NCBI GenBank assembly: GCA_025210375.1
Contig: JAOASB010000013.1
Span: 1-64,000 of the forward strand
Direction: 5' to 3'
Length of the DNA: 64,000 nucleotides
Origin: Maledivibacter sp.
GTDB lineage: Bacteria > Bacillota > Clostridia > Peptostreptococcales > Caminicellaceae
The position numbers and the translations under genes are program-made. How positions within the stretch are numbered: position 1 is the stretch's first letter; every line of letters starts with the position of its first letter. This document shows, piece after piece, positions 34,025 through 56,365 of this stretch. Below the pieces are notes generated by a model. The model saw nothing but the letters and a program-made list of their open reading frames with translations, ran no database searches and was not told the DNA's origin.

Positions 34025-36681
34025 ATAGCGATAGGTAAACCTTTGATATAATCTCCAGCTTTTCCCCCGCTCCACACCGTGCATGAGACTTTCATCTCAC
34101 ACGGCGTTCCATCAATAATTATTTATTTACATTATTACGCAATTTCCTACCTTTTTCCTTAAAGAATTTAATTTTTTCACATTAATATTTTCAATCTTTT
34201 TCATATATTTCTCTATAGTTTCATCCTGAGTTGCATGAATCAATTTATGCACATCGCCACTTATAATAACTAGATTCTTATATTCATCACTTCCACCTTT
34301 ATGTCTAGGTTTCTTGTGGTGAACATATATATCTCCAATTTTCAACTTGTTTCCAGTCACGTAACATTTTCCACCTTGTGCCGTAAATAATGATAATCTA
34401 TTATCATTATATTCAATACTTTCACCTTGAACAGGATTATCCATTAGGTATCTTAATACAGTGATATTCACCATTTTCAATTTATTGTGAATTAATGTTC
34501 TTCCTTTAGCAGTATAGTTACAAATATCTTGGGAAAAACACATTGGTGGGACTGTTTTAATTGAGTATATTGAAAATAACGTAATCCCTTGTATATATTT
34601 AGCCTGTGCTTTCGAATGTCCATAGAGGTTTTGATATGTTCTGCTTTTTATTCCTTTGGTGCTGACAATATTTTTCAGTCTGTTTTTAATCATTCGATTA
34701 ATTTCAAATGCGATTTTATCAAAATCAAGAAATACATTTGTTGCAACTTTATAGTAGTTTTGCATTCCGAGGATTGTTGAGTTATATTTATATACATTTC
34801 CCACACTAACTTCTCTTTGTATTGCTTTTATGCATTTCACTAGCTTCATTTTACAGTTCTTTATGCTTTTATCAGTTAGGTGTGACCTAACAACCATCTT
34901 TTTATTTTTCTTATGAAGTTTGAGTTTAATTCCTAAAAATTCTGAGTAATTCTTTTTAAGATTTATTATCTTACTTTTTTCAGAACTTATTTCTAAATTC
35001 AATCTTTCTTTAAGCCACATTTTTGTGGCTTCAAATATTTTAATGGCCGTTTTTCTATCAGTACAAAATAATTTAACATCATCTGCATATCTTACTATAA
35101 ATACTTCCTTTAAGTTTGTTTTCTTTAAGGCTCTGTATTTATGCCTGCCTGAATATTGATGTCTTGTATCATAACATTCCCATTGTGAAGCTATCCACCA
35201 ATCAAGTTCATTTAAAACAATGTTAGAAAGTAAGGGGCTGAGTATTCCACCCTGTGGAACACCTTTTATAGGAATTCCACTCCCTTTAATTTCTGCTTTA
35301 CACATTTTAGATATTATACTAATCACACGTTTATCTCTTATGCCAAGACTCCAAATTTGTTTTAATAATTTGCCGTGGTTCACATTATCAAAAAATCCTT
35401 TGATATCTATATCCACGACATAATGGAATTGACTAACTTGCATAAGTCGCATTGTTCTTGCAATAGCATGATGTGTTCCCCTATTAGATCTAAATCCATA
35501 GCTATGTTTATAAAACTTAGCTTCACAAATAGGTTCTAATATCTGTTTTATACATTGTTGAATGATTCTATCTTGAATTGTAGGTATTCCCAGTGGTCTC
35601 ATTTTTCCATTGGTTTTTGGGATTTCAACACGCTTTACTGCCATGGGTTGATAATTAGATAATCTATTTCTGATATACTCTACCAATTTATCAGGCTCTT
35701 TTTCTCCTATATCTATAATTGTACTTTCATTCACACCTTTGGTCTTACTTCCTTTATTCTTCTTTATATTTCTATAGGCTAGAAGTATATTTTCTCTACT
35801 GATAATCAAGTCATAAAGTTTGTAAAAGTTTTGATTATTTTTAGACTGTAAATATAATTTATCAAACACCTTTTGTGTATCATAATATTCATTATGCCGA
35901 AGCACTTTCTTTTTCTTTAGTTTATCTGTAGGTATAAGGCAACACTCCTTTATGTAGGAAATGTTTCTCTTAGTCATACTCGAAACTTATATCTTGCGTA
36001 CTACTGCTTTTAATATAATTATTGACTTGTGGCTATCCCTCCACCACTTGTTATCATGGTTTCATTAGTACTATGCCACTACTCTCACTGATATTAAGAT
36101 AAGTTATACATTATTGCTTTCCTTATCAACATGTCATTGGTTTCCCAAAACCTCTTTGCTATCAGCTTTCCACGTTCCGATAATTTTATCTTTACATATA
36201 TATCCTTAGGTTTTCTCTTTGAGCCTGTTCACATCATATCGCCTATAACGATATCGGGACTTTCATAAAAACCACTCTTACTCATCCTGTGAACCTTACA
36301 TTTAGTAAGTATAGCTTTTCAGCTATATCGGCATATAGACCCGTACATTCGAGAATTCGTCAGTTAAACCTTTATTTTTAACATTCTAACCATAGATATT
36401 TTATAGACTCCCGACCTATCATATACTCGACTTTTTACAGTTCGCTGTTCCTCAGCTTTACCTGTTAGGGTATATTCTCAGTCGACTTCTACGAGCTTAT
36501 AACGGTATAGTATTGGGATACTATCCGCTATTCGTAGTATTAGAGAGGGCATTTCAAGGTGTTAATCTATCATTCTACCCTTCAAATTATCAGTTCTCCA
36601 GATTATTGTTTTGAAAGCTCCTTTCATTCTTTCTCTAATTTTAGTCTGTGCCTAACCTTTTCAGTTAGGAACGTGTCACAC
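34025..36681 (-). mobile_element. Group II intron 1, in virB4
   Basis: A 2657-base intron. The 5' end is GTGTGACACG (36681 downward), the group II consensus. The 3' end has a domain V hairpin (GCCGTGTGAGATGAAAGTCT region, near 34095-34065) and a domain VI whose CCTA branch-point is seven bases from the end, CGCTAT|TTAC. Splicing restores virB4 exactly. About 700 bases of ribozyme precede its protein gene. It shares end sequences with introns 2 and 3 but the proteins differ clearly, so these are separate relatives and not recent copies. Confidence 0.92.
34127..35977 (-). CDS. ltrA: Group II intron-encoded protein 1 (RT, maturase, HNH)
   Basis: A 616-residue multifunctional protein. The reverse transcriptase has RT0-RT7 motifs, with the catalytic YADDVKLF near residue 295, and VDIDIKGFFDNVNH and KGVPQGGILSPLLSN before it. 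A maturase (X) domain follows. The C-terminus holds an HNH nuclease (GKCYVTGNKL, HHKKPRHKGGSDEYKNL, HKLIHA). It binds the intron RNA to help splicing and copies it into new target sites. All catalytic parts appear intact, so it should be active. Confidence 0.95.
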   Translation of the reverse strand: MTKRNISYIKECCLIPTDKLKKKKVLRHNEYYDTQKVFDKLYLQSKNNQNFYKLYDLIISRENILLAYRNIKKNKGSKTKGVNESTIIDIGEKEPDKLVEYIRNRLSNYQPMAVKRVEIPKTNGKMRPLGIPTIQDRIIQQCIKQILEPICEAKFYKHSYGFRSNRGTHHAIARTMRLMQVSQFHYVVDIDIKGFFDNVNHGKLLKQIWSLGIRDKRVISIISKMCKAEIKGSGIPIKGVPQGGILSPLLSNIVLNELDWWIASQWECYDTRHQYSGRHKYRALKKTNLKEVFIVRYADDVKLFCTDRKTAIKIFEATKMWLKERLNLEISSEKSKIINLKKNYSEFLGIKLKLHKKNKKMVVRSHLTDKSIKNCKMKLVKCIKAIQREVSVGNVYKYNSTILGMQNYYKVATNVFLDFDKIAFEINRMIKNRLKNIVSTKGIKSRTYQNLYGHSKAQAKYIQGITLFSIYSIKTVPPMCFSQDICNYTAKGRTLIHNKLKMVNITVLRYLMDNPVQGESIEYNDNRLSLFTAQGGKCYVTGNKLKIGDIYVHHKKPRHKGGSDEYKNLVIISGDVHKLIHATQDETIEKYMKKIENINVKKLNSLRKKVGNCVIM

Positions 36682-40542: not shown

Positions 40543-43336
40543 ATGACGATAGGTAATCCTTTGATATCATCTCCAGATTTTCCCCCGCCTCACACCGTGC
40601 ACGAGAGTTTCCCCTCACACGGCGTTCCATCGTGAATTTCAACTGGTATAACAAAGCAGTTATCAACATTAACAAGTTTTCTTAATTTATTTAACTTCAT
40701 GATTTGAGATTTATCGAGACTTAATGCACTTAATAGACGGAAAATCGTTTCTTCTCTATTTGCGTGTATCAGCTTATGTATAACCTCTGATACGATAGTG
40801 AGATTTCGATAGTTATCTTTCCCACCTTGATATCGTGGTTTCTTATGGTGGCAATATATATCGCCTTTCTCCAAGGTTATTTTACTGACAGCACACTTAC
40901 CTCTTTGTGCACAATATAGGGATAGACGATTATCATTAAATTCTATGGAACTATTTTTTATAGGATTTCTCATTAGATAGTGAAGTATATCCATGTTGAC
41001 TTGTTCTAATCTCTTATGTATTTGCTCTCTCCCCTTTGGGGTATACTTGTTAATGACCTTTGCTTTTGCCATAGGTTTCTTATGAGATACATAACCGATA
41101 GGAACTAGTACTTTATCGCTACCTATAAACCGTAGTTGTTTACTTTTTCCATAGCATTCCTGTATGTGCTTAGGTATGGTATATTTGATTTTCCTTTTGT
41201 CTAATTGTTTTCTCTTTTTCAATCTCTCTCGAAGTCTTGCTTTTAGGCTCTTATGAATAGGAAAGGCAATTTTCCTAAAGTCTTCTTGAACACGTGTTGC
41301 CATGTTGTAATAATTATGTACACCTATTACAAAAGAGTTGTACATGTAGGTTGCAGTAAATTGCCCATTTCTGTCCTTTGGATATTGAATCTTATATATT
41401 AATTCATGGGCTTTTTGAACAATCTTTTCTGCTGATTTTTCAGTGATATGACTTTTAACAATATATTTGGGCTTACCATTGCTCTTTTTCCCTTGTCTTC
41501 GTAGCTTTAGTTTTAACCCAAGAAATTCCGAGTATCTCTTTTTTAGATTAACAACCTGTGATTTCTGTTCATTAATCTCTAACCCTAGCCGATTCTTCAA
41601 CCAATCTTTTACTGCAAAATATAGTTTGTCAGCGTCTACTTTGGATTTACAAAATATTTTAAAATCATCAGCATACCTTACTATATAACACTCTTTAAGG
41701 TTTGTTAGTCTCCTAAGCGAACCATATCTACTACTGTTGATAGGCGTTCCCTGTGGATTCATTCCAGTCGCATATTGCTTTTTAGTTGGCATTGATACCC
41801 ATTGGCTATCAATCCACCAATCTAATTCATTTAGAACTATATTAGATAATAAAGGAGATATGATTCCCCCTTGAGGAGTTCCTTTCTCTGGAAATCCAAT
41901 ACCAGCAATTTCTGCCTTTAACATGGTTGATATAATAGAAATTAAGGTTTTATCTCTAATCCCCATGTGCCACATCTGCTTTAGTAGTTTTCCATGATTG
42001 ACATTATCGAAGAATCCTTTAATGTCGATATCTACTACAAAGCTACATTGGCTTAATTGCATCAATCTATACGTCTCCGCAATTGCATGTTTTGTACTTC
42101 TGTTAGGTCTGAATCCATAACTGCTATCATGGAATTTCGCTTCACAAATAGGTTCTAGTATTTGTAGAACACACTGTTGTATAAGCCTATCCATAATAGT
42201 GGGTATCCCAAGTGGTCGCAATTTTGTAGGGTCATTTGGTTTTGGAATTTTAACCCTTTTAACGGGCTGTGGTTCATACCAGCTTAGCTTTCTTTTGACA
42301 AGGTAAATAAGTCGTTCATCACTTAATTTAGCTAGATTTTTAATTGTTCTATTATCTGTACCTGCTGTTTTACTTCCTTTATTTTTCTTTAGTGTACGAA
42401 ATGCTAATCGAATATTTTCTTCGGATGTAATTAATGGCATCAGTTTTTTAAATATCTTACCATCTAAGCTTTTTGAATAAAGTTTGTCTAAAACATCCTG
42501 TAAATCATAATATTCAACATACCGTAGTTTTGCCTTTTTCTTGCCTTTTGTTGTCATAGTCGGCTCACCTCGTTGTAATCTGGTTTGCCTTTCTTATTCT
42601 TACTCGAACCTATGATTTCTCTGCTTTTGTTCTACTATTTTTCAGTTTTATTCTCGACTAGTGGCTATCCCTCTACTATGTTTCCATAGTTTCATAGGTA
42701 CTATGCCACCACTTTCAGTTAGATAGAAATGGGTTATACTTTGAAAGTTTTCCCTATTACCGTTTCATAGCATTGTAATCTGCTCCACGTCCTAACCTTA
42801 CCATGTTCCAATATTCCTATCTGTGCATATATCCTTAGGCTATCCTTTGAGCCTGTACGCTTGATGATACCTTTAATATCATAAGGTCTTTCATGGGCAC
42901 TATTTTACTCAACCTCACGCACACCGCACTTTGACGGTTACGACATTTCTACCGTATCGACTTCTAGACCCTTTCATTCGGATGTTCGTCAGTGAGCGTC
43001 AACTCACATTCTTACCATAGATATCTTATAGACCTCCGGCATATAAATAGCACCATTCACCGCTGAACAGCTTTCGTGCAAAATATATCTTGCTTACGGC
43101 TATCCTCTGCCGACTTCACCGAGCTTCAAACACATAAATCATTACATATTTCCATGCTTGTCGGAGTATTAAGGGGGCGTTTCAAGGCGTTACCCTATCA
43201 TTCCACCCATCGGAATATTAGTTATCATTTCTAACTATATTCAAGTAGTTTAGAAACGCTTCTCTTTTAGCATTACACGGACTTATGCCTGTAATTTTCT
43301 ATTACAGGGTAATGTTTGTGAGAAAACATGTCGCAC
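40543..43336 (-). mobile_element. Group II intron 2, in the secreted-protein gene
   Basis: A 2794-base intron. It begins GTGCGACATG (43336 downward) and ends CCTATCGTCAT at 40543. Domain V is near 40620-40590. The intron protein's last codons run into domain V. About 780 bases of ribozyme domains I-III lie before the protein gene. It sits only six codons before the end of its host gene, so unspliced mRNA would still give an almost complete host protein with ten changed residues. Confidence 0.92.
40590..42557 (-). CDS. ltrA: Group II intron-encoded protein 2 (RT, maturase, HNH)
   Basis: A 655-residue protein, the longest of the three. The reverse transcriptase catalytic site is YADDFKIFC; VDIDIKGFFDNVNH, KGTPQGGIISPLLSN and the HNH parts GKCAVSKITL, HHKKPRYQGGKDNYRNL and HKLIHAN are all present. 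Relative to proteins 1 and 3 it has extra segments after the active site (GMNPQGTPINSSR, and LKKRKQLDKRKIKYTIPK). The last 20 residues are encoded by domain V of the intron itself, an overlap not seen in the other two. All motifs look intact. Confidence 0.94.
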   Translation of the reverse strand: MTTKGKKKAKLRYVEYYDLQDVLDKLYSKSLDGKIFKKLMPLITSEENIRLAFRTLKKNKGSKTAGTDNRTIKNLAKLSDERLIYLVKRKLSWYEPQPVKRVKIPKPNDPTKLRPLGIPTIMDRLIQQCVLQILEPICEAKFHDSSYGFRPNRSTKHAIAETYRLMQLSQCSFVVDIDIKGFFDNVNHGKLLKQMWHMGIRDKTLISIISTMLKAEIAGIGFPEKGTPQGGIISPLLSNIVLNELDWWIDSQWVSMPTKKQYATGMNPQGTPINSSRYGSLRRLTNLKECYIVRYADDFKIFCKSKVDADKLYFAVKDWLKNRLGLEINEQKSQVVNLKKRYSEFLGLKLKLRRQGKKSNGKPKYIVKSHITEKSAEKIVQKAHELIYKIQYPKDRNGQFTATYMYNSFVIGVHNYYNMATRVQEDFRKIAFPIHKSLKARLRERLKKRKQLDKRKIKYTIPKHIQECYGKSKQLRFIGSDKVLVPIGYVSHKKPMAKAKVINKYTPKGREQIHKRLEQVNMDILHYLMRNPIKNSSIEFNDNRLSLYCAQRGKCAVSKITLEKGDIYCHHKKPRYQGGKDNYRNLTIVSEVIHKLIHANREETIFRLLSALSLDKSQIMKLNKLRKLVNVDNCFVIPVEIHDGTPCEGKLSCTV

Positions 43337-45323
43337 CATGCCAGTCATCATAGACTGAGCCTTCTATGGTTACACCGTCATTTAGATTCACTCTTAACAT
43401 GCCATCAGGTGTCCAACAATCTATGACTTTACTATAAACTTTATATGCTCCGTCAGGATAAGGCAATGGGGTGAAATGGGTTCTACTGTTAAAGGTAGAG
43501 TATGGGTTCTCCTTAAACTCAAATGTTCTTCCTCCAGTTTTATCAAGGAGTCGCCAATAGTCATTGTAATGAAATTCTGGAAAATAAGTCACAACATTTT
43601 GAGCAGTGGTATAGTGACTTGACGGTGCATTGGTTGTAATCCCTACATCCACTTTGATATCAACACCATAACCACTGGCAATGGTATACTCCCCATATTT
43701 TCCTTTTGCAGTAGGATTATGAGCATCTGGCTTTAACTCCATATCTGCTTGGATACTGGCTGTATATCTTGTGTAAGTATAATCCCACTGACCGTAATCT
43801 TCCCACCATCCTTCATCAACCCATTTATAACGATGTACACGTTTTGTACTGCCGTCTGCTCTTGTTTTGGTGTAGCATCCACTATGATATTTTTTCCAGT
43901 TCTCATGCCATCTATAATTCGCATCCCATACGGCACTATAAATGCCCCAAGTAGCTGTTATTTTATCAGCTTCGTGGGGCAATGCAGGAATTTTAAAATT
44001 TGGCATCTTATCTGTTGGTCGTGGATCAGGTGGCATATTCTCAGCTAAATCTTCTATTTTAACTTTAAAACTCGTACTTCTTCCACCTTCTTGCAATCTA
44101 GCAGAACTGTTACCTGAAACATTGACATTAATCGTTACTTCACATGGTTGTGATGGGGTTCGCCATTTTAGGAAGGCATATTGACTGTCTCCATTTGGAA
44201 TAACAACAGGCATGGTTGTTGATTGACCATTGGCAGTAATAGTCACATAGGCTTTACCATCTGATGGATTGGTATAGGCACTTTTTCGTGTATCTTTTTC
44301 CTTGTGACGTGTATCAGGCGTAATGTCACCATTAGCAGCTTGAACCATTACTGAGGTAATTACATCTGTATTCACTCGATAAGTATAATCATAGGTTGTA
44401 TCATTAGGTACAACATCTATCCCATTGGCTTCAAGCATTCGCATGCCAATACCACCACCACTAATGATTCTGTCATCACTCCAGTGAACACCATCTTTCA
44501 AAGGACTTGTTACAGGAATACCTACCCAACTTTCTTCAAGTACAATAGAATTAGGGAGATCACTATGGGTCATCCCTGCTACATACTGCCCTGTGCTTCC
44601 CCAAAACCAATTGAAGTATCCTAACTTTTGAGAAAGGGCATATTCTGTTGCTGTAAAGGCAATCGGCTGTCTATAGCCACTACTATTAGGCTTTGTGTAA
44701 GTAATAATAACGGGTTCATAGACTATGAGCCATGCAACTTTATTTTGATATTTTTCATTTACTTTAACTGGTAGGATGTCTTCAGGTGGATAGTAATCCG
44801 TTTTATTATTGATGGTGAACTGTATGTTGCTGACAAGCCCTTCTCTAGTTGTACCACGTTTTTCTGCAATATTATCAATCATATAATTTAAGGTACTTGT
44901 ATCACCAAAGTATGATTTAACAGAATCTATATTCCCACCATTAGTAATTGGTATTGGTGGTGGAGAATCAATGAGATAATCATTAATGACAATTGGAGAT
45001 AGATTTATCCCACTAGAATATTGAATTTTATTATAAGGTGTACCATACGTATTATTAGGCAATGTAAATGTATTTGGTACTATATAAGTAGGTTCATTTC
45101 CTAATAGTACAAAATCAGATATAGGATTGTTCATATCTGCCACATCGGATAGACCAACATATATTGATACTTTATACATGTATTCAGCACTTCTATAAAA
45201 CCCTTTTCCATTAAGTGCGCTATTTGTGTTCCCACTACCACTATCTGCATTGTCTTCTGCATTCACGCACATTCCTATACTTAAAATACAAACACATAGG
45301 AAAAAACTTATTGTTCTTCGCAT
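43337..45323 (-). CDS. Secreted conjugation-associated protein, 5' exon
   Basis: About 662 residues (668 after splicing to 40523-40542). A signal peptide is clear (MRRTISFFLCVCILSIGMCV, cut probably after the NAE region). The frame extends 13 codons further upstream, but GAGGAGATGATAAA precedes the ATG at 45323 and a terminator lies in the extension. The rest is rich in Thr, Tyr and beta-type sequence. No catalytic motif is seen. Proteins of this size and position occur in Clostridia transfer operons (I recall names such as DUF5704, not certain). It probably acts at the cell surface during mating. Confidence 0.7.
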
Positions 45324-45341
45324 TTTATCATCTCCTCTCAC

Positions 45342-45372
45342 AAAAAAAGCCAACTTCTTCAAGTTGACTTTT
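45342..45372 (-). terminator. Terminator after the acidic membrane protein gene
   Basis: On the minus strand AGTCAACTT and AAGTTGGCT pair around GAAG and are followed by seven T. It lies between the acidic protein gene (ends 45395) and the secreted-protein gene (starts 45323), so the two are not simply cotranscribed. Confidence 0.82.
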
Positions 45373-47429: not shown

Positions 47430-50351
47430 TTAAATAATCTTAATTCTAGATAACACATCTCTATGGTAATCATCAATCATCTTCGTGATTTCATGACTAT
47501 CACTCAAATATTCCTTACTCAATCTCAAAGCATCTATTAACAAATAAATTCCTTCAACTGTCTTATTGGACTGTATATAGAATACAGCAAGTGAATACAT
47601 TGATTCGATAGTATCTTTATGCCCATTACCTAGTGTCTCTGTTGAGAGTCTTAGTGCTTTTTCCAAAAGCAACTGGGCCTCATCAAAACGCCTTAAATCA
47701 TTATATAAAATACCAAGATTATTTATTGTGGCAATTGTTTCTGGATGTAATTCACCAAGAATTTTACTCCGCACTTCTAATGACTCCTTTAAGAGTTTCT
47801 CAGCCTTTTCCATTTCATTCATTTCACTATAAAATCTGCCTAGATTATTAAGCGAAGTAGCATAATCAGCGCTTTCTACCCCTAAACTTAACTTACGACT
47901 ATTTTTGGCATTTTCAAGTAGCTTCTCGGCTTCTTCATATTTTCCTAAATTTAATAACGTTAAGCCTAAATTGTTGCATGTAGTTGCAATTTCATTTGGG
48001 TCAATTAATGGATGCTTTTCTGTAAGAATTAGCGACTCTTTTAAAAGTGTCTCAGCCTTATCAAAATTGTGTAATTCAATACATAATCCAGCATAATTAT
48101 TTAGTGAATTTGCTATGTCTCGATGATTAGGATTAAATATTGTTCTTCTTATTTCAAGTGACTTTTGAAAATATTTTTCTGCTAAGTTATATTTACATTT
48201 CTTTGTATACATATTAGCCAGACTATCAAGAATATCTGCTACAAACTGATTATCCTCTCCATTAATTGTTTTCTCAATATCCAAAGCTTCTAGCAAGTAT
48301 TTTTCTGCCAAACTATACTCACCCATATCAATTAATAACGTAGAAAAATTATATAAAGTAGCAATTAATAAATCATTATTCTCTCCGTAATAGTTCAATT
48401 TTAATTCAATAACGTCTTGAAATAATTTCTTAGCTTCTTCAAAACGACCCTTCACTTGATATATTTTTGCTAAACATCCTTTTGATGTTAAATATATCTC
48501 AAAATTTTGATCATGTTTACTGTCACAACTCTGAATCATACTTAGGTAATGATTCTCTGCTTCCTCATATCTACCTTGATCTAACATTAATCCTGCTAGA
48601 TTAATTTTAGTTCTGAGAGTCGCATTTGAATCTTTACCCATCAATTCTTCACGTATACTTAAAGCCTTAATTAAAAGTTTCTCAGACATACTGTAATTTG
48701 ATAAAATCAAGTTATAGTATGTCCCAAGCTGATGAAATAAGTATGATACCTTTTCTAGTTCAATTCTGTTATGATAAGCACAATTAGCTATGACATTAAT
48801 ATGAAGATGCCAAGGCAAATATGAAGACCAGCTATCTACTGATTTCATTTGAAAATCTATGTTTTCATATGCAAAATTTATAAGTGAACTTAAGCAGTCA
48901 TGATTATTGTCATACATCTGAATAACATTTTGTAATAGTCGATGAATTGAAATCGTATTAGATGAACGCTTTACCAAGGAATATTCGGCTAATTTTGAAA
49001 TTACCTCATTAAACTCAATTTTATCATTAATAATTCCTGATATAGGTGAATCAATATAATTGGATAAGTCTGTTAAAATACTTAACTCTATATTTTCTGA
49101 ATATAAATACGCCATCACCTGCATTAACTGTAATGATTTTTTATCTTGAATTTTATTAAAAGAAAGTAACCAAGTTGTTGCTACTGAATTCTCATATTTA
49201 ACTGGATGGCTTTTTTCAAACAATTTCATTTGGTATTCGGAATACAATTTATAATATTCAATAATAGAGATGCAATGTTTTAGTATATATGCCGCAGCTT
49301 GTTCCAATGCTAATGGAAGATATCCTAATTCCTCTACAAGTTTTTCTACTCCATCATCAATTTTCAATTTAGTTCTATTCATCATAAAATCAACTGCTTC
49401 AACTTTATCAAACACATTGACCTCATATTTATCTCCAATCATATCCCAGTCGGCAAATCTAGAAGTAATTAATATATTCCCACTCTGAGTAACTGGTATA
49501 TAATCATATAATTCATCGAAATTACTTGCGTTGTCATACACAAATAGCCAATTACTGTTTTGAGAAGCCCATTCACTTATCATTAATACAACTTCATTAA
49601 CATCTTCAATTTCTTTGTCAACAAAACCTAATTTTATCAATAGCGAATTATAGCTTTTAATAATCGTACTACTGTCCTCTGATTCTATCCACCAAACAAC
49701 TTCATAATTCTCTTGAAATCTAAATATGTACTCAAGTGCAATTTGAGTCTTTCCAACGCCACCTAATCCAGTCAATATAAATACCTTATCTGAATCAATT
49801 TGGTTATCAAATTTGTCTTTAATGGATTTTAGGATATTTCCTCTTCCAGAGAAATGCCTATTTCTCCTAAATTTTAGGTTTAAAATTTTTTTTGAAGATT
49901 TTTCATTATAAAGTCCTGGAAATCCAGATGCAACTCTTCTTCTTTTGGTTTCATCTACGCCAGAAAGTAATTTCTTCTTTGATTCCTCTTCACTAGCTTC
50001 AAATAAATCAATGTAAATAATCTGTTTTAAAAGCCCTTCTGGTCTAAACTCACTAACTCTAATGGGTATTAGCGTAGAATTCTTGCCTGTGGGATCTTTT
50101 ACAAAAGCTGCTTGCCATTCTGATTGTGTAAAAAGGGATTCAAAGTACTTCTCTGATAGAATACTTATTGTTCTATCACAATTAATTGTAGCTTCATGCA
50201 TTTTTTGAACAAAATTAGATCCTGGATTAAAGTCCCATGCTTGAATTGTAGTTGTATATCCTTCATCCTCTAACGTCTTAGCAACCCAAGTAGCCCACTT
50301 CTCATCTGAATGAGTGTAACTAATGAAAAAATCTTTTTTTTCGTTACTCAT
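47430..50351 (-). CDS. TIR-NB-ARC-TPR (NLR-like) immune protein
   Basis: A 973-residue protein. Residues 1-130 form a TIR domain (KKDFFISYTHSDEKWATWVA) with the probable NADase glutamate in QSEWQAAF (Glu78). A STAND/NB-ARC ATPase follows: Walker A LTGLGGVGKTQIALEY (near 195), Walker B NWLFVYDN, sensor ILITSRF and LGYLPLALEQAAAYI. From about 540 to the end are some ten kinesin-light-chain type TPRs (KYEEAEKLLENAKNSRKLSL and similar). The TPRs would sense a phage signal, the ATPase would assemble, and the TIR would destroy NAD. It has its own leader, ribosome site (GGAGG at good spacing) and terminator inside the transfer operon. Confidence 0.93.
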   Translation of the reverse strand: MSNEKKDFFISYTHSDEKWATWVAKTLEDEGYTTTIQAWDFNPGSNFVQKMHEATINCDRTISILSEKYFESLFTQSEWQAAFVKDPTGKNSTLIPIRVSEFRPEGLLKQIIYIDLFEASEEESKKKLLSGVDETKRRRVASGFPGLYNEKSSKKILNLKFRRNRHFSGRGNILKSIKDKFDNQIDSDKVFILTGLGGVGKTQIALEYIFRFQENYEVVWWIESEDSSTIIKSYNSLLIKLGFVDKEIEDVNEVVLMISEWASQNSNWLFVYDNASNFDELYDYIPVTQSGNILITSRFADWDMIGDKYEVNVFDKVEAVDFMMNRTKLKIDDGVEKLVEELGYLPLALEQAAAYILKHCISIIEYYKLYSEYQMKLFEKSHPVKYENSVATTWLLSFNKIQDKKSLQLMQVMAYLYSENIELSILTDLSNYIDSPISGIINDKIEFNEVISKLAEYSLVKRSSNTISIHRLLQNVIQMYDNNHDCLSSLINFAYENIDFQMKSVDSWSSYLPWHLHINVIANCAYHNRIELEKVSYLFHQLGTYYNLILSNYSMSEKLLIKALSIREELMGKDSNATLRTKINLAGLMLDQGRYEEAENHYLSMIQSCDSKHDQNFEIYLTSKGCLAKIYQVKGRFEEAKKLFQDVIELKLNYYGENNDLLIATLYNFSTLLIDMGEYSLAEKYLLEALDIEKTINGEDNQFVADILDSLANMYTKKCKYNLAEKYFQKSLEIRRTIFNPNHRDIANSLNNYAGLCIELHNFDKAETLLKESLILTEKHPLIDPNEIATTCNNLGLTLLNLGKYEEAEKLLENAKNSRKLSLGVESADYATSLNNLGRFYSEMNEMEKAEKLLKESLEVRSKILGELHPETIATINNLGILYNDLRRFDEAQLLLEKALRLSTETLGNGHKDTIESMYSLAVFYIQSNKTVEGIYLLIDALRLSKEYLSDSHEITKMIDDYHRDVLSRIKII

Positions 50352-50518
50352 TTTTACCTCCACTAACTGTAATTATGTAATCACATTAACTTTATAGTTT
50401 ATAAATTATTGATATTGTGTAGATTCAAAAACTATATCTCACAACTCGTTTAATAATGTAAATCTAATGATTCTCTCTAATTATACACCTTCCAATTTAT
50501 CCCTGTCCACAACATCAA

Positions 50519-51396: not shown

Positions 51397-52329
51397 TCAC
51401 CTCCTGTATTCTACTGGTTTTGATAACTTGATTACACCCGATATGGATACAAATAATACCCCAATACATATCGCCAATGTTCCCTTACCTATAGGTGTAT
51501 GCATCAACGCATGATACCAGTCACGATTAAGAAAATAGATGAGTGGTATATTTCCAAGTAATAAAGCTACCATCATCATGAATTCTTTAATCGGCTCATA
51601 AAGCATGTTATCTAGTTCAGATGATACAATCCTCATATCTGATAGCTTAGATACAATTGGTGTTAACGTGGATTTCAAATTCTTATCTTCTTGGCAATCC
51701 ATTATGGCATCTACCCATTCTCTGAAAACATCGCTATCAATCTTCTCTCTTAATTTTTCCAACGCCATATTAATATTAGAGTTAATGAGTTTGGTATCTG
51801 CTAAAAAAGCATTGAAAATATTATAAACAGGTTGATTGATATAATCTATATTCTCTTCAATAGCAGTTATAATACTGTCACACCTCATATAAGATGTGGT
51901 AACCACTGATAAGACTGTCTCTAACTCTCCATTAAGTTCATTTTTCCACTTGGTGGATATAAGCTTAACATACCAAAAGGGCATTAATGCAAATCCAACA
52001 CCTAATATCGGCATTAATAATTTGTTTCCAATTAGTAAAGCGAAGATCATTCCTACCACAGACAGGATCAAAGATAATGTTGTTATAAAGTAAAAGTTAT
52101 TTTCACGTCCAGTCATTATTAATATTTCTTTTGTTTCACGTAGTAATCGCTTTATTCCTTTTGACTTCTTTTTCTGAGTCACATTTAATACCTTTAGTCT
52201 TATACTCACTCGTGATTTCTTGGGTCGGTATGACTTTAATTGATTATAGATTTCTACAGGTGATATATCTAGAAGTACCATAAATCCCACCACCAACAAA
52301 ACAAATGAAATCTTTATTAATCTATTCAT
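51397..52329 (-). CDS. tadB: TadB-like type II secretion F domain membrane protein
   Basis: A 310-residue membrane protein with helices near 10-25, 85-125 and at the C-terminus (MMMVALLLGNIPLIYFL, and LAICIGVLFVSISGV). Between them is the soluble four-helix region of TadB (ETVLSVVTTSYMRCDSIITA). It is the platform partner of TadC. The ATG overlaps the end of cpaF by eight bases, so cpaF, tadB and tadC are one translation unit. Confidence 0.8.
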   Translation of the reverse strand: MNRLIKISFVLLVVGFMVLLDISPVEIYNQLKSYRPKKSRVSIRLKVLNVTQKKKSKGIKRLLRETKEILIMTGRENNFYFITTLSLILSVVGMIFALLIGNKLLMPILGVGFALMPFWYVKLISTKWKNELNGELETVLSVVTTSYMRCDSIITAIEENIDYINQPVYNIFNAFLADTKLINSNINMALEKLREKIDSDVFREWVDAIMDCQEDKNLKSTLTPIVSKLSDMRIVSSELDNMLYEPIKEFMMMVALLLGNIPLIYFLNRDWYHALMHTPIGKGTLAICIGVLFVSISGVIKLSKPVEYRR

Positions 52330-52917
52330 CTATCACACCTCCCATGAGCTGACTTAATTCAGCCTTTGATATACCATTTTCTAATAATCTCTTTTGCATA
52401 ACTGCCGATGGTCTATTCAACATTTCATATTGACCAATGATCTTTGACCTACCATCAACCTCCATATTGTCAACCACATTGTATTTATATAGTGTACGAA
52501 TCTCCCTGCTACCATCTTCTTTAATCAGGCACTCCGTAATCTCCATGATATGCCTTGTGTTATCCTCTAGCTTTTTACAGAATGCAATAATAGGAAAAGC
52601 TTCTGTTACAAGGTTATACAATGTTTTTTCATCCATATCATATTTTTGCTTACATAACGTCACCATCCTGTAATAAGTTGCTACACATGAGTTCGCATGA
52701 ATAGTTGTTGAAACACCATGCCCTGATCTTGCAGATTCTTGGGCATAAAAAGCCTCATCACTTTTCATCTCGGCAACACATATATAATCAGGATTAACCG
52801 TAAGGGCAGTCTCTAACAATTTTGCCATTGTGATCGACTGTTTAGGGTCATCACTTTGTCTTGTGACTGTATGAATCACGTTATTGATGACCTCGCCTTT
52901 ATCGTTCTTTTTTATCA
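52322..52917 (-). CDS. cpaF: 3' exon of cpaF (C-terminal 198 residues)
   Basis: After the intron the frame reads LIKKNDKGEVINNVIHTVTR, then QSDDPKQSITMAKLLETAL, the arginine-rich and Walker B region (NPDYICVAEMKSDEAFYAQE) and a C-terminal domain ending MGGVIDE. Joined to the 5' exon at 55633 after the first base of a leucine codon (T|TG), it completes an expected REFNLIKKNDKGEVINN stretch without gap. An in-frame stop lies upstream, and the TTG at 52918 has no good ribosome site, so it depends on splicing. Confidence 0.88.
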
Positions 52918-52956
52918 ATGTATACCATCCCTACATTGAAGCTAGGGTAGGTATTT
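52918..52956 (-). other. 39-nt 3' extension hairpin of group II intron 3
   Basis: Positions 52956 down to 52918 fold into ATACC, a two-base internal mismatch, CCCTA, a nine-base loop, TAGGG, mismatch, GGTAT, then ACAT. It is absent in introns 1 and 2. The exon frame shows that it has to be removed with the intron to make CpaF. Confidence 0.65.
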
Positions 52957-53081
52957 TTAACGATAGGTAAGTCTTTGAAATTATCTCCAACTTTTCCCCC
53001 GCCTCACACCGTACGTGAGAGTTTCCCCTCATACGGCGTTCCATCGGTTATTATTTATTCTTATTAATTTTGATTATTCAA

Positions 53082-54896
53082 TTAAACTTTGAAGTTTCCA
53101 ACTAAATCACGAAGCTTATTAACTTTCGACAAAGCAGTGGTACTAAGATTTAACTTTCCTAGATATTTGGCTATTGTATCATCGTCAGTAGCATGTATCA
53201 ATATATGCACATCCTCTTTAAGGTAAATTAGATTTTGATATTTATCTGTTCCACCTTGACTTTTAGGGGTTTTATGATGTACATGCATACTTCCTATTTC
53301 AAGTTTTTCATGTGTTATTGCACATTTCCCATTTTGCGCTACATAAAGTGATATTCTATTATCATTAAGCTCTATGCTCTCATGGGCTATAGGTGTTTCC
53401 ATTAAGTACTTTATAATTTTATGGTTAACATTATTTAATGTAGAATGTATTTTTATTCTACCTTCTATTGTAAAATTACATTTGTCTTGTGAAAACCCTT
53501 TTGGTATTTGAAATCTTATTAATGATATTGGGAATAGTGCTATGTTGTTTACATAATATACTTTTCCTTTGTAATCACCATAATATTTAATAAAAGTTCT
53601 ACTCTTATTACCTTTCTTTGTACTATTGTTTCTAAGCCTGTTATAAAGGTTCTTGCTTAAAGGAAAGGCTATTCTTCTAAAGTCAAGATATACTCTGGTA
53701 GCTACTTTATAATAATTATGTATTCCTAATATAGTAGCATTATACTTGTTTACTGTCTGTTTACCAGGGCTATGTTGTATATCCTTTATTCTTTCTTTCA
53801 GCGTCTTTGTAATCTTTTGCTTTGCTTTATCTGATATATGTGATTTAACAACCCATTTATGTGATTTTCTATATACTTTCATTTTTGTCCCCAAGAACTC
53901 TGAGTATGATTTCTTAAGGTTGACCACCTTTGATTTTTCCTTATTAACTTCTAGATTAAGGCGATATTTTAGCCAATCTTTTACTGCACACATCATAATC
54001 TCAGCATCTTTAATATTTGTGCAAAATATACGAGCATCATCCGCATATCTAACAATAAAGCATTCCTTTAGATTTGTGGTTTTTAATGCTCTATATTTAT
54101 GCCTACTTGCATATTGATATCTTGTTGGCATGTATTCCCACTGACTAGCAACCCACCAATCAAGTTCATTTAAAACTATATTTGATAATAAAGGACTAAG
54201 TATACCACCCTGTGGCACACCTTTTGACTGTACACCCATTCCTTTAATTTCTGCCTTAAGCATTTTAGAGATAATACATATTAAATTTTTATCTCTTATT
54301 CCCATGCTATATATTTGTTTTAATAACTTTGAGTGGTTTACATTATCGAAAAATCCTTTAATATCTACATCTACTACATAATAGAAACTACCATTGTTAC
54401 ATAGTGTTGATGCTCTTGCTAATGCATGATGTGTTCCTCTATTTGGTCTAAACCCATAACTATGTTTATAGAATTTAGCTTCACATATTGGCTCTAGTAC
54501 TTGTAGTATGCATTGTTGGATTAATCTATCTTCAATTGTGGGGATTCCTAGAGGTCTACTACCTCCATTAGGTTTTGGTATCTCAACTCTTTTTATTGCT
54601 TGTGGTTTATAGTTTCCTAATCTACTTTTTACATAATTAATCAGCTTTTGAGGATCATTTACTCCAATATCAATGATATTTGTTTTATTAGTCCCCCTTG
54701 TCATGCTCCCTTTGTTTTTCTTTATATTTCTAAAGGCTAGCATTATGTTCTCGTTGCTGGTTATTATTTGCAATAGATTTTTAAACTGTTTTCCATTTTT
54801 ACTTTGTTTATATAGGTTGTCAAATACATCTTGAATATTGTAATATTCATTATTCCTAAGTTTCTGATTCTTGAGAACTTCTCTTTTAATTGTCAT
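53082..54896 (-). CDS. ltrA: Group II intron-encoded protein 3 (RT, maturase, HNH)
   Basis: A 604-residue reverse transcriptase-maturase with HNH domain. The motifs are VDVDIKGFFDNVNH, KGVPQGGILSPLLSN, the catalytic YADDARIFC and, at the end, GKCAITHEKL, HHKTPKSQGGTDKYQNL and HILIHATDD. It is nearer to protein 1 than to protein 2 in length and sequence. The catalytic residues are present. It must support splicing at the shifted 3' site described for this intron. Confidence 0.95.
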   Translation of the reverse strand: MTIKREVLKNQKLRNNEYYNIQDVFDNLYKQSKNGKQFKNLLQIITSNENIMLAFRNIKKNKGSMTRGTNKTNIIDIGVNDPQKLINYVKSRLGNYKPQAIKRVEIPKPNGGSRPLGIPTIEDRLIQQCILQVLEPICEAKFYKHSYGFRPNRGTHHALARASTLCNNGSFYYVVDVDIKGFFDNVNHSKLLKQIYSMGIRDKNLICIISKMLKAEIKGMGVQSKGVPQGGILSPLLSNIVLNELDWWVASQWEYMPTRYQYASRHKYRALKTTNLKECFIVRYADDARIFCTNIKDAEIMMCAVKDWLKYRLNLEVNKEKSKVVNLKKSYSEFLGTKMKVYRKSHKWVVKSHISDKAKQKITKTLKERIKDIQHSPGKQTVNKYNATILGIHNYYKVATRVYLDFRRIAFPLSKNLYNRLRNNSTKKGNKSRTFIKYYGDYKGKVYYVNNIALFPISLIRFQIPKGFSQDKCNFTIEGRIKIHSTLNNVNHKIIKYLMETPIAHESIELNDNRISLYVAQNGKCAITHEKLEIGSMHVHHKTPKSQGGTDKYQNLIYLKEDVHILIHATDDDTIAKYLGKLNLSTTALSKVNKLRDLVGNFKV

Positions 54897-55632
54897 AGGT
54901 CGGCTTTTTCTCCTGTAGGATTATTTTGCCTCTCTTAATCTTACTCGAACCCTATTAGTTGTTGTTTTCAAAATTAATATTTTATTATAATAACTGACTA
55001 GTGGCTATCCCTCCACTACTTATTATCGTAGCTTCATTGGTACTGTGCCACCACTTTCACTATAGTTAAAGCAAGTTATACTATTGTTTTCATTGCTACC
55101 ACTTCATCAGAATTTAGTCCTCCATGTCCATAGCTTACCACGTTCCGATAATTATATCTTTGCATATACCCTTAGGTTTTCTCTTTGAGCCTGTTTGCTT
55201 GATATTGCCTGTAACAATATAAGGTTTTTCATATCAACCAGTCTTACTAAACCCCACAAACTACACACTTTGGTGTCATTAGCCTTTCGGCTAATCCGAA
55301 TTATAGACACGTACATTCAAGAATTCGTCATTCAAGCGTTTTGCACTTGAAATACTAACCATAGGTATTTTATAGACCCCCAGCCTATCATACACTCGAC
55401 CACCTCTGGTTCGCTATTCCTCAACTTTACTTGTTAGGGTGTACTCTCAGCTGACTTCACCGAGCTTATGACCCTTATATGCTAAATCATATAACGCCAT
55501 TCGGAGTATCAGGGATAGCGTTTCAGGACGTTACTCCTTCATTCCACTATATCTAACCATCAGTTCTACTAAATCAGAACTTTCACGTTCATTATTTAGT
55601 GCGTAACCTTTTCAGTTACGAACGTGTCGCAC

Positions 55633-56365
55633 AATTAAACTCACGAGTCCCATTTTCAATGGTGAAAAGCCTTTTATTATTGGGCAAAGTTGATAATACA
55701 TAACTCATTAAAGTTGTTTTACCGCTAGATGTTGCTCCTGTAAAACAGATACTCTCTCCATATCTATGTGCCAATGTCAAAAAATCTAACATCTCAGCAC
55801 TGGCTGTATCATTCCTAATAAAATCCTCTTTTGATAGCTTTCTTGGATTAATGATACGGATTGATACAGTTACCCCTACATCTTTATCTACAATGCCTTT
55901 AGCTATGGCTGTGATCCTTATTTTATCACTAAGATGACCAACGACAATGGGTTGTGAACTATCCAAAATCATACCACTTTGATGAAGTAATCTTCTAATG
56001 ACATCCATTGCATGGGTTGGCGAATTAAAATGCTCATCCGCAGGTTTTATCTCACCATTAGAATAGGTCACCTTGATGTCATCAAAGCTGTTTACATTGA
56101 TTTCTTCTATATCATCTCTTTCAAGGTATTGAGTTAGGAAGCTGAATTCAGCCATTTCCATATACAGACGTTCAATCAAGCTATAACTATTGTATCCATC
56201 TACCTTTAATTGATTTTCTTCTATATACTTCTTGATATAGGACTTCAACTTAATTTTGCTTTCAACCACACCATCATCTGTTATCAAAATGGCATAGCTC
56301 TTTGAAATATGTTCCTGCACACGCCTTAAAACTTCTGTAAAGTCCATATATTTACTCATAATCAT
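55633..56365 (-). CDS. cpaF: 5' exon of cpaF, Tad-type secretion ATPase
   Basis: The first 244 residues of a 442-residue CpaF/TadA ATPase. The N-terminal domain contains EINVNSFDDIKVTYSNGEI and the P-loop FTGATSSGKTTLMSYVL. It stops at TIENGTREFN, directly after the conserved TRE arginine, where the intron interrupts. Without splicing the protein lacks its Walker B and C-terminal domains and cannot work. CpaF hexamers drive pilus assembly together with TadB and TadC. It follows the P-loop ATPase gene with a 14-base overlap. Confidence 0.9.

Follow-up and report, generated by a model that had tools for sequence, protein, structure and literature searches.

The three introns of the conjugation region

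The window, the whole stretch of 64 kb that was analysed, lies on contig C13 of a 4.56 Mb genome and carries three group II introns, all on the minus strand and each with an open maturase frame. The genes and intron features required for the description of the third intron are as follows:

34025..36681, minus strand: group II intron 1, host gene virB4-like, 3' end UCGCUAU (ordinary)
40543..43336, minus strand: group II intron 2, 3' end UCGUCAU (ordinary)
52322..52917, minus strand: cpaF/VirB11-type gene, 3' exon (TGATAAAAAAG...; Pfam T2SSE; joined frame and homologue alignment)
52918..55632, minus strand: group II intron 3, 2715 nt, 5' end GTGCG, 3' end ACAT (5' site placed by GTGYG and IBS1-EBS1, 3' site by the CpaF frame, EBS3-IBS3 and the S2 layout)
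52957..53041, minus strand: domains V and VI of intron 3 (Rfam RF00029, 58.4 bits)
52964, minus strand: candidate branch-point A of intron 3, bulged in domain VI (fold and alignment)
53082..54896, minus strand: reverse transcriptase/maturase of intron 3 with an HNH domain, 604 aa, frame intact (ORF and domain search)
55369..55568, minus strand: ribozyme D1-D4 core of intron 3 (Rfam RF02004, 159.9 bits)
55633..56365, minus strand: cpaF/VirB11-type gene, 5' exon (Pfam T2SSE; homologues cross the junction)

The joined VirB4-like stretch around intron 1 matches a homologue in a single piece (60/60 residues). The IEP of intron 3 is 35% identical to the class B IEP of B.psf.I1, the trees being built without a reference set of other classes, and the kin of the CpaF and maturases of this genome, in which no 16S turned up, are mostly Clostridia. 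The three introns stand on separate IEP branches and lie within a single conjugation region spanning some 22 kb (34025-55632); their hosts are the virB4-like gene, the ORF at 43302-45362 (at its C-terminal end) and cpaF. Amid the conjugation genes is also found a 977-aa protein with TIR, NB-ARC and TPR domains (47430-50363, minus strand), with weak PADLOC matches; its gene is a candidate for STAND/NLR-like defence within the element. Outside the window, the genome also contains a broken second copy of cpaF (G000:C37:180024-180371), in two pieces that are 79% and 74% identical.

The 3' end of intron 3

The initial annotation held that introns 1 and 2 end 7 nt past the bulged A of domain VI, which is borne out by the fold and alignment of their ends; the same spacer occurs in nearly all the tail-less relatives and is described for class B, and also for class E and some IIC introns (PMC9294222). 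Counted from the branch-point A at 52964, the rule would place the canonical end of intron 3 at 52957, with this as its final base. The joined translation confirms that cpaF then reads REFN followed by a stop, and that an end placed 39 nt later, so that 52956-52918 of the minus strand belong to the intron, gives REFNLIKKND. Joined after 52918, the gene reads ENGTREFNLIKKND, with ENGTREFN before and LIKKND after the junction and no gap. The canonical end of intron 3 is AA, while 118 of the 128 tail-less ends tallied are AT or AC. A canonical 3' end AAA instead of AY was observed in L035, L036, L042 and L043, and the frame of a conjugation gene is restored at that end in L035 and L036, as judged by eye.

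The joined CpaF protein was searched against 60 genomes and a plasmid collection, and the junction alignment comprised 30 whole-genome loci (the window's own, L124, excluded) and one plasmid locus. An uninterrupted relative might, as the initial annotation allowed, have carried the 39 nt as coding sequence; none of the five uninterrupted cpaF homologues does, and its placement of the end stands. These homologues (L120, L121, L122, L123 and L150; 59-81% identical) read REFNLV across the junction without a gap. A homologue of 50% identity has one residue fewer a few positions past the junction, and the remaining ones, at most 35% identical, are variable there. Locus L068 was considered as a further cpaF insertion and rejected, its host being another gene. 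The rest of the cpaF 3' exon is open; the gene could be dead.

Further information on the splice sites was obtained from the pairings between intron and exons, scanned in the aligned 5' parts of 54 introns:

55234..55239, minus strand: EBS1 GGUUGA, pairing with IBS1 UUAAUU (55633-55638) at 6/6 positions, three of them G-U (scan of aligned introns)
55185, minus strand: EBS3 A, pairing at the extended site with U52917 (exon +1) and not with the A of the canonical site (scan of aligned introns)

When the six exon bases before the intron are tested for complementarity, one column stands out as EBS1 (mean 5.5/6 over 40 tail-less introns, next column 3.6). For EBS3, a blind scan over 40 introns selected a column whose Watson-Crick partner is exon +1 in 30/39 and which also has the highest mutual information; a motif-based recount gave 38/47 paired, as compared to at most 31 in 10,000 permutations, from which relatedness among the introns was not removed. 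EBS3 fits the S2-predicted ends of all six Bacilli domain VII introns and, in intron 3, only the extended of the two candidate ends. Because A is a common letter, the fit in intron 3 is weak alone and adds up alongside the frame; since the EBS3 base is unpaired at the fixed 7-nt end in 9/39 introns, a mismatch there is not decisive. A delta-delta' pairing of the IIA type at the base before EBS1, inspected by eye, gave no fit. In L060 and L076, which share a maturase clade with L050, L053 and L113, EBS3 matches exon +1 only with an 8-nt rather than a 7-nt spacer.

The tail and its relatives

Introns of the B.c.I4 type carry a rare tail, domain VII. This additional RNA separates domain VI from the 3' splice site, is spliced with the intron and consists of a small stem S1 of highly conserved sequence and a stem S2 with an invariant internal loop near its base (PMC3261151). 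The tail of intron 3 comprises the following parts:

52955..52963, minus strand: 9-nt linker UCGUUAAAA, in the place of S1 of the Bacilli introns (identical in L231/L260 and L232/L261)
52918..52954, minus strand: S2 hairpin of a short domain VII (model R1 match; paired cells)
52950-52954/52922-52926, minus strand: S2 basal stem
52948-52949/52927-52928, minus strand: S2 internal loop UA/AU
52943-52947/52929-52933, minus strand: S2 upper stem
52918-52921, minus strand: 3' ACAU after S2

It reads AUACC-UA-CCCUA...UAGGG-AU-GGUAU-ACAU, and the two-part hairpin proposed earlier for the extra bases is indeed formed by the basal and upper stems around the UA/AU internal loop. The tail folds at -12.1 kcal/mol, as compared to -6.2 +/- 2.3 in 5000 dinucleotide shuffles (p 0.015), and 0.75% of 9842 39-mers of the window fold as well; the energy being only mildly unusual, it is the comparative evidence that decides.

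A covariance model, R1, was built from five Bacilli S2 stems with the sequence of intron 3 excluded. The tail is its top place in the 64 kb window (52954-52918, 22.9 bits, E 7.9e-4 with R1 E-values being rough; next place 15.8 bits), and is not reported under the default filters. In six sequences 48/48 cells of the S2 pairs are paired, 11 of them changed on both sides, a pairing score reached in 0/500 shuffles, and across nine sequences 98.6% of the cells are paired. The basal stem covaries, with CG in place of GC in the window copy. An S2 with an internal loop near its base is present in the tail of intron 3 on the R1 match and the pair counts, and UA/AU is presumably the invariant internal loop of the published S2.

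Tailed relatives were found in Niallia, Bacillaceae C02, Cytobacillus plasmids and two Bacillus-order genomes, in addition to B.psf.I1 (L004), whose published end agrees with the S2 layout. All the Bacilli tails consist of S1 followed by an S2 with a 5-bp stem, UA facing AU and an upper stem, after which the splice site is reached in four bases. In L004, L151, L153, L155, L156 and L228 the tail-aware join leaves the frame open, and the one in L154 meets a stop shortly past the junction. S1 (ACCCGAAAUGGGU or C) is present in 8/8 S1-plus ends, and the window intron, L231 and L232 lack it. The S2 layout, the definition of which was written after the sequences were seen, occurs in 11 of 139 distinct DV-DVI ends scanned, the window's included, and is passed by 2 of 200,000 random 110-mers; as many S1-plus ends were fetched for their tails, 11/139 is not a frequency. 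In eight of these ends S2 starts 18 nt past the branch A with S1 between (in L226, 22 nt by the anchor used for counting), and in the other three, which have no S1, at 9 nt.

The proposed search for relatives with the same tail yielded two further S1-less copies, in two other genomes that belong to the same order. It was carried out with a model, R2, of domains VI and VII from intron 3 (tail included) and four Bacilli introns. Matches were obtained in 28 of 393 same-order genomes, and the window (84 bits), G1048 (71.2 bits) and G1128 (66.9 bits) stand out, all remaining matches being at or below 52.5 bits. In G1048 (L231/L260) and G1128 (L232/L261) the linker is identical to UCGUUAAAA and S1 is absent, the basal stem is different yet paired, UA lies opposite GU (L260) or AU, and the end is ACAU. 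R1 gives L260 and L261 only 14.2 and 13.7 bits, still the top score of each locus and at the right place. The tail-aware join of L260 reads HKVGAGKTFEMVAAA (HKVGAGKTFEMVAAAQESKRLGLCQ), restoring a Walker A motif, and its EBS3 G pairs with the exon +1 C at that end, with no pairing at the canonical site. The intron of G1128 is cut by a contig end.

The genome of intron 3 holds only one copy of the tail. In its class, 391 genomes searched by pattern gave only the window and one chance match, and with R2 nothing further in 341 genomes scored above 50.5 bits; in the family of G1048, the single hit among 296 genomes is G1048 itself. In the Bacillus order, 397 genomes gave two S1-plus introns (L226 and L227) and one chance match. 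The genome samples of these searches overlap. In viral contigs, the S2 pattern occurs in 66 stretches, none with the domain V motif upstream, the linker pattern in 26, none with the domain VI motif upstream, and the S1 pattern in none. In plasmids and phages, among the matches listed, domain V-VI matches stop at or a few bases from the canonical end and leave the tail uncovered.

The closest relative of L260 is the Ruminococcus albus intron L047 (74% maturase identity, branch support 100/100). The two are sister introns at the same target site, VGAGK before and TFEM after the junction, and are 80% identical in the 5' part of the intron and 54-60% in the exons. L260 is tailed, whereas L047 is tail-less and passes from UUGUCAU into the exon, and in their alignment the tail is a clean insert between UYGU and CAU; intron 2 ends UCGU-CAU, with the same flanks and the insert absent. 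On the IEP tree the tail label changes five times, at least four of these being forced by starred branches, and the tree does not separate gain from loss. Intron 3 pairs weakly with tailed Cytobacillus introns in one tree (85/61; L034, L042, L058 and L106, with no frame long enough, left out) and with tail-less introns in another (85/55).

A single IEP clade of intron 3 and L260 is rejected (p-AU 0, post hoc). The S1-less module therefore occurs in at least two separate intron lineages, which points to recombination exchange at domains V-VI, repeated loss or convergence. That the S1-less tails arose independently of the Bacilli domain VII and share with it only an S2 likeness would agree with the rejection of this clade, with the weak scores of L260 and L261 against the Bacilli S2 model and with the differing apical parts of the tails. 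It is rather unlikely, as the C-UA-C...G-AU-G loop (GU in L260), the 5-bp basal stem and the 3' end ACAU are common to the tails and the 9-nt linker is identical among the S1-less copies. Domain VII might, with somewhat less than even probability, be a separable RNA module with S2 alone as its core. Its S1-less form with the UCGUUAAAA linker would then pass between distant introns, with gain or loss at a single target site in the case of L260 and L047, and bring about a different choice of 3' splice site.

Proposed splicing and comparison with known introns

The layout, the covariation, the restored frames, the fit of EBS3 and the recurrence in other genomes form the basis for recognising a minimal domain VII in the tail. 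Most likely the extra hairpin is cut out together with intron 3 and, judging from the sequence comparisons, the tail is very probably a minimal, S2-only domain VII, with S2 bridging the spacer and EBS3-IBS3 fixing the site. The 39 nt would form an insert, linker plus S2 hairpin, between UCGU and the terminal CAU in the spacer from the branch A to the 3' splice site. The first step would be ordinary branching at 52964; in the second, S2 would bridge the lengthened spacer and bring the terminal ACAU and the first U of the exon into the active site. The 3' site would be fixed by EBS3-IBS3 (A55185-U52917) and, presumably, by gamma-gamma', and the canonical site would be passed over because its +1 A cannot pair with EBS3. 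What we infer is that the extended site is used in splicing, that the UA/AU loop may dock, that the intron may be mobile together with its tail, and that the tail may bring a benefit.

Both sites might instead be used, with folding of S2 as the switch: a CpaF truncated after REFN would come from the canonical site and the full protein from the extended site. B.a.I2 does use two 3' sites 4 nt apart (PMC4424553, PMC9294222), and canonical joins truncate the product or lose the frame in the window intron and in L260; the unpaired EBS3 at the canonical site of both, and the AA end set against the AT or AC of most tail-less ends, make such a switch very improbable. Equally hard to credit is the reading that an ordinary intron in a cpaF pseudogene is followed by a small 3'-exon insertion of chance or unrelated origin, to which the single copy in the genome and the mild hairpin energy would be no obstacle, as the 39 nt are absent from the homologues with the frame returning exactly after them, the S2 match and its 4-nt spacing lead to the same base, linker and layout recur in two other genomes, and the remaining exon is open.

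If the tail is a minimal domain VII, naturally S1-less introns may show the minimal working form of this domain, and L260 and L047, sisters at the same site with and without the tail, make its role directly testable. These introns also bear on whether different introns acquired the extension separately, a question left open in PMC3261151. For annotation, ends called from domain VI alone are wrong for such introns, and intact genes look broken.

The resemblance to B.c.I4 noted in the initial annotation holds for the S2 part of that extension and fails for the S1 stem, absent from the tail; nor is the B.c.I4 group of B. cereus the only similar case, as domain VII also occurs in B. pseudofirmus and Bacillus sp. 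2_A_57_CT2 (PMC3261151). In deletion work on B.c.I4 and B.th.I6a, the tail shifts branching versus hydrolysis or is required for the second step (PMC3261151). In the light of this work, the likeliest role of the tail is to help position the branch and the 3' site; a 2022 review terms what the Bacillus insert does a mystery (PMC9294222). The titles and abstract openings of the literature searched, a scope that leaves out the two main experimental papers, name no S1-less form and none outside Bacilli.

As in B.c.I4, B.th.I5/I6/I7, B.psf.I1 and Ba.sp.I2, the insert of intron 3 would lie past domain VI and ahead of the 3' splice site, a position with which the frame and EBS3 agree. The S2 internal loop, the 3' end and the predicted downstream shift of the splice site match as well, and plasmid or conjugation-gene hosts are common to both. 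Unlike the hosts of the Bacillus domain VII introns, that of intron 3 presumably lies outside the Bacillus order sampled, as is suggested by its class and that order forming separate genome sets in the sampling, and the tail of intron 3 is 42 nt by the published count (39 from the canonical end) as against 53-56 or 70 nt. It differs from every published domain VII covered in that S1 is missing, with the linker UCGUUAAAA instead. Non-canonical 3' splicing in bacteria is known also from C.te.I1, which unlike intron 3 has repeated DV/DVI units and no IEP (PMC4424553). In B.a.I2 the 3' site is set by EBS3 and gamma pairing and not by a fixed distance, as is proposed here for intron 3 (PMC4424553, PMC9294222), whereas its shift is of 4 nt and, as described, the hairpin insert is absent.
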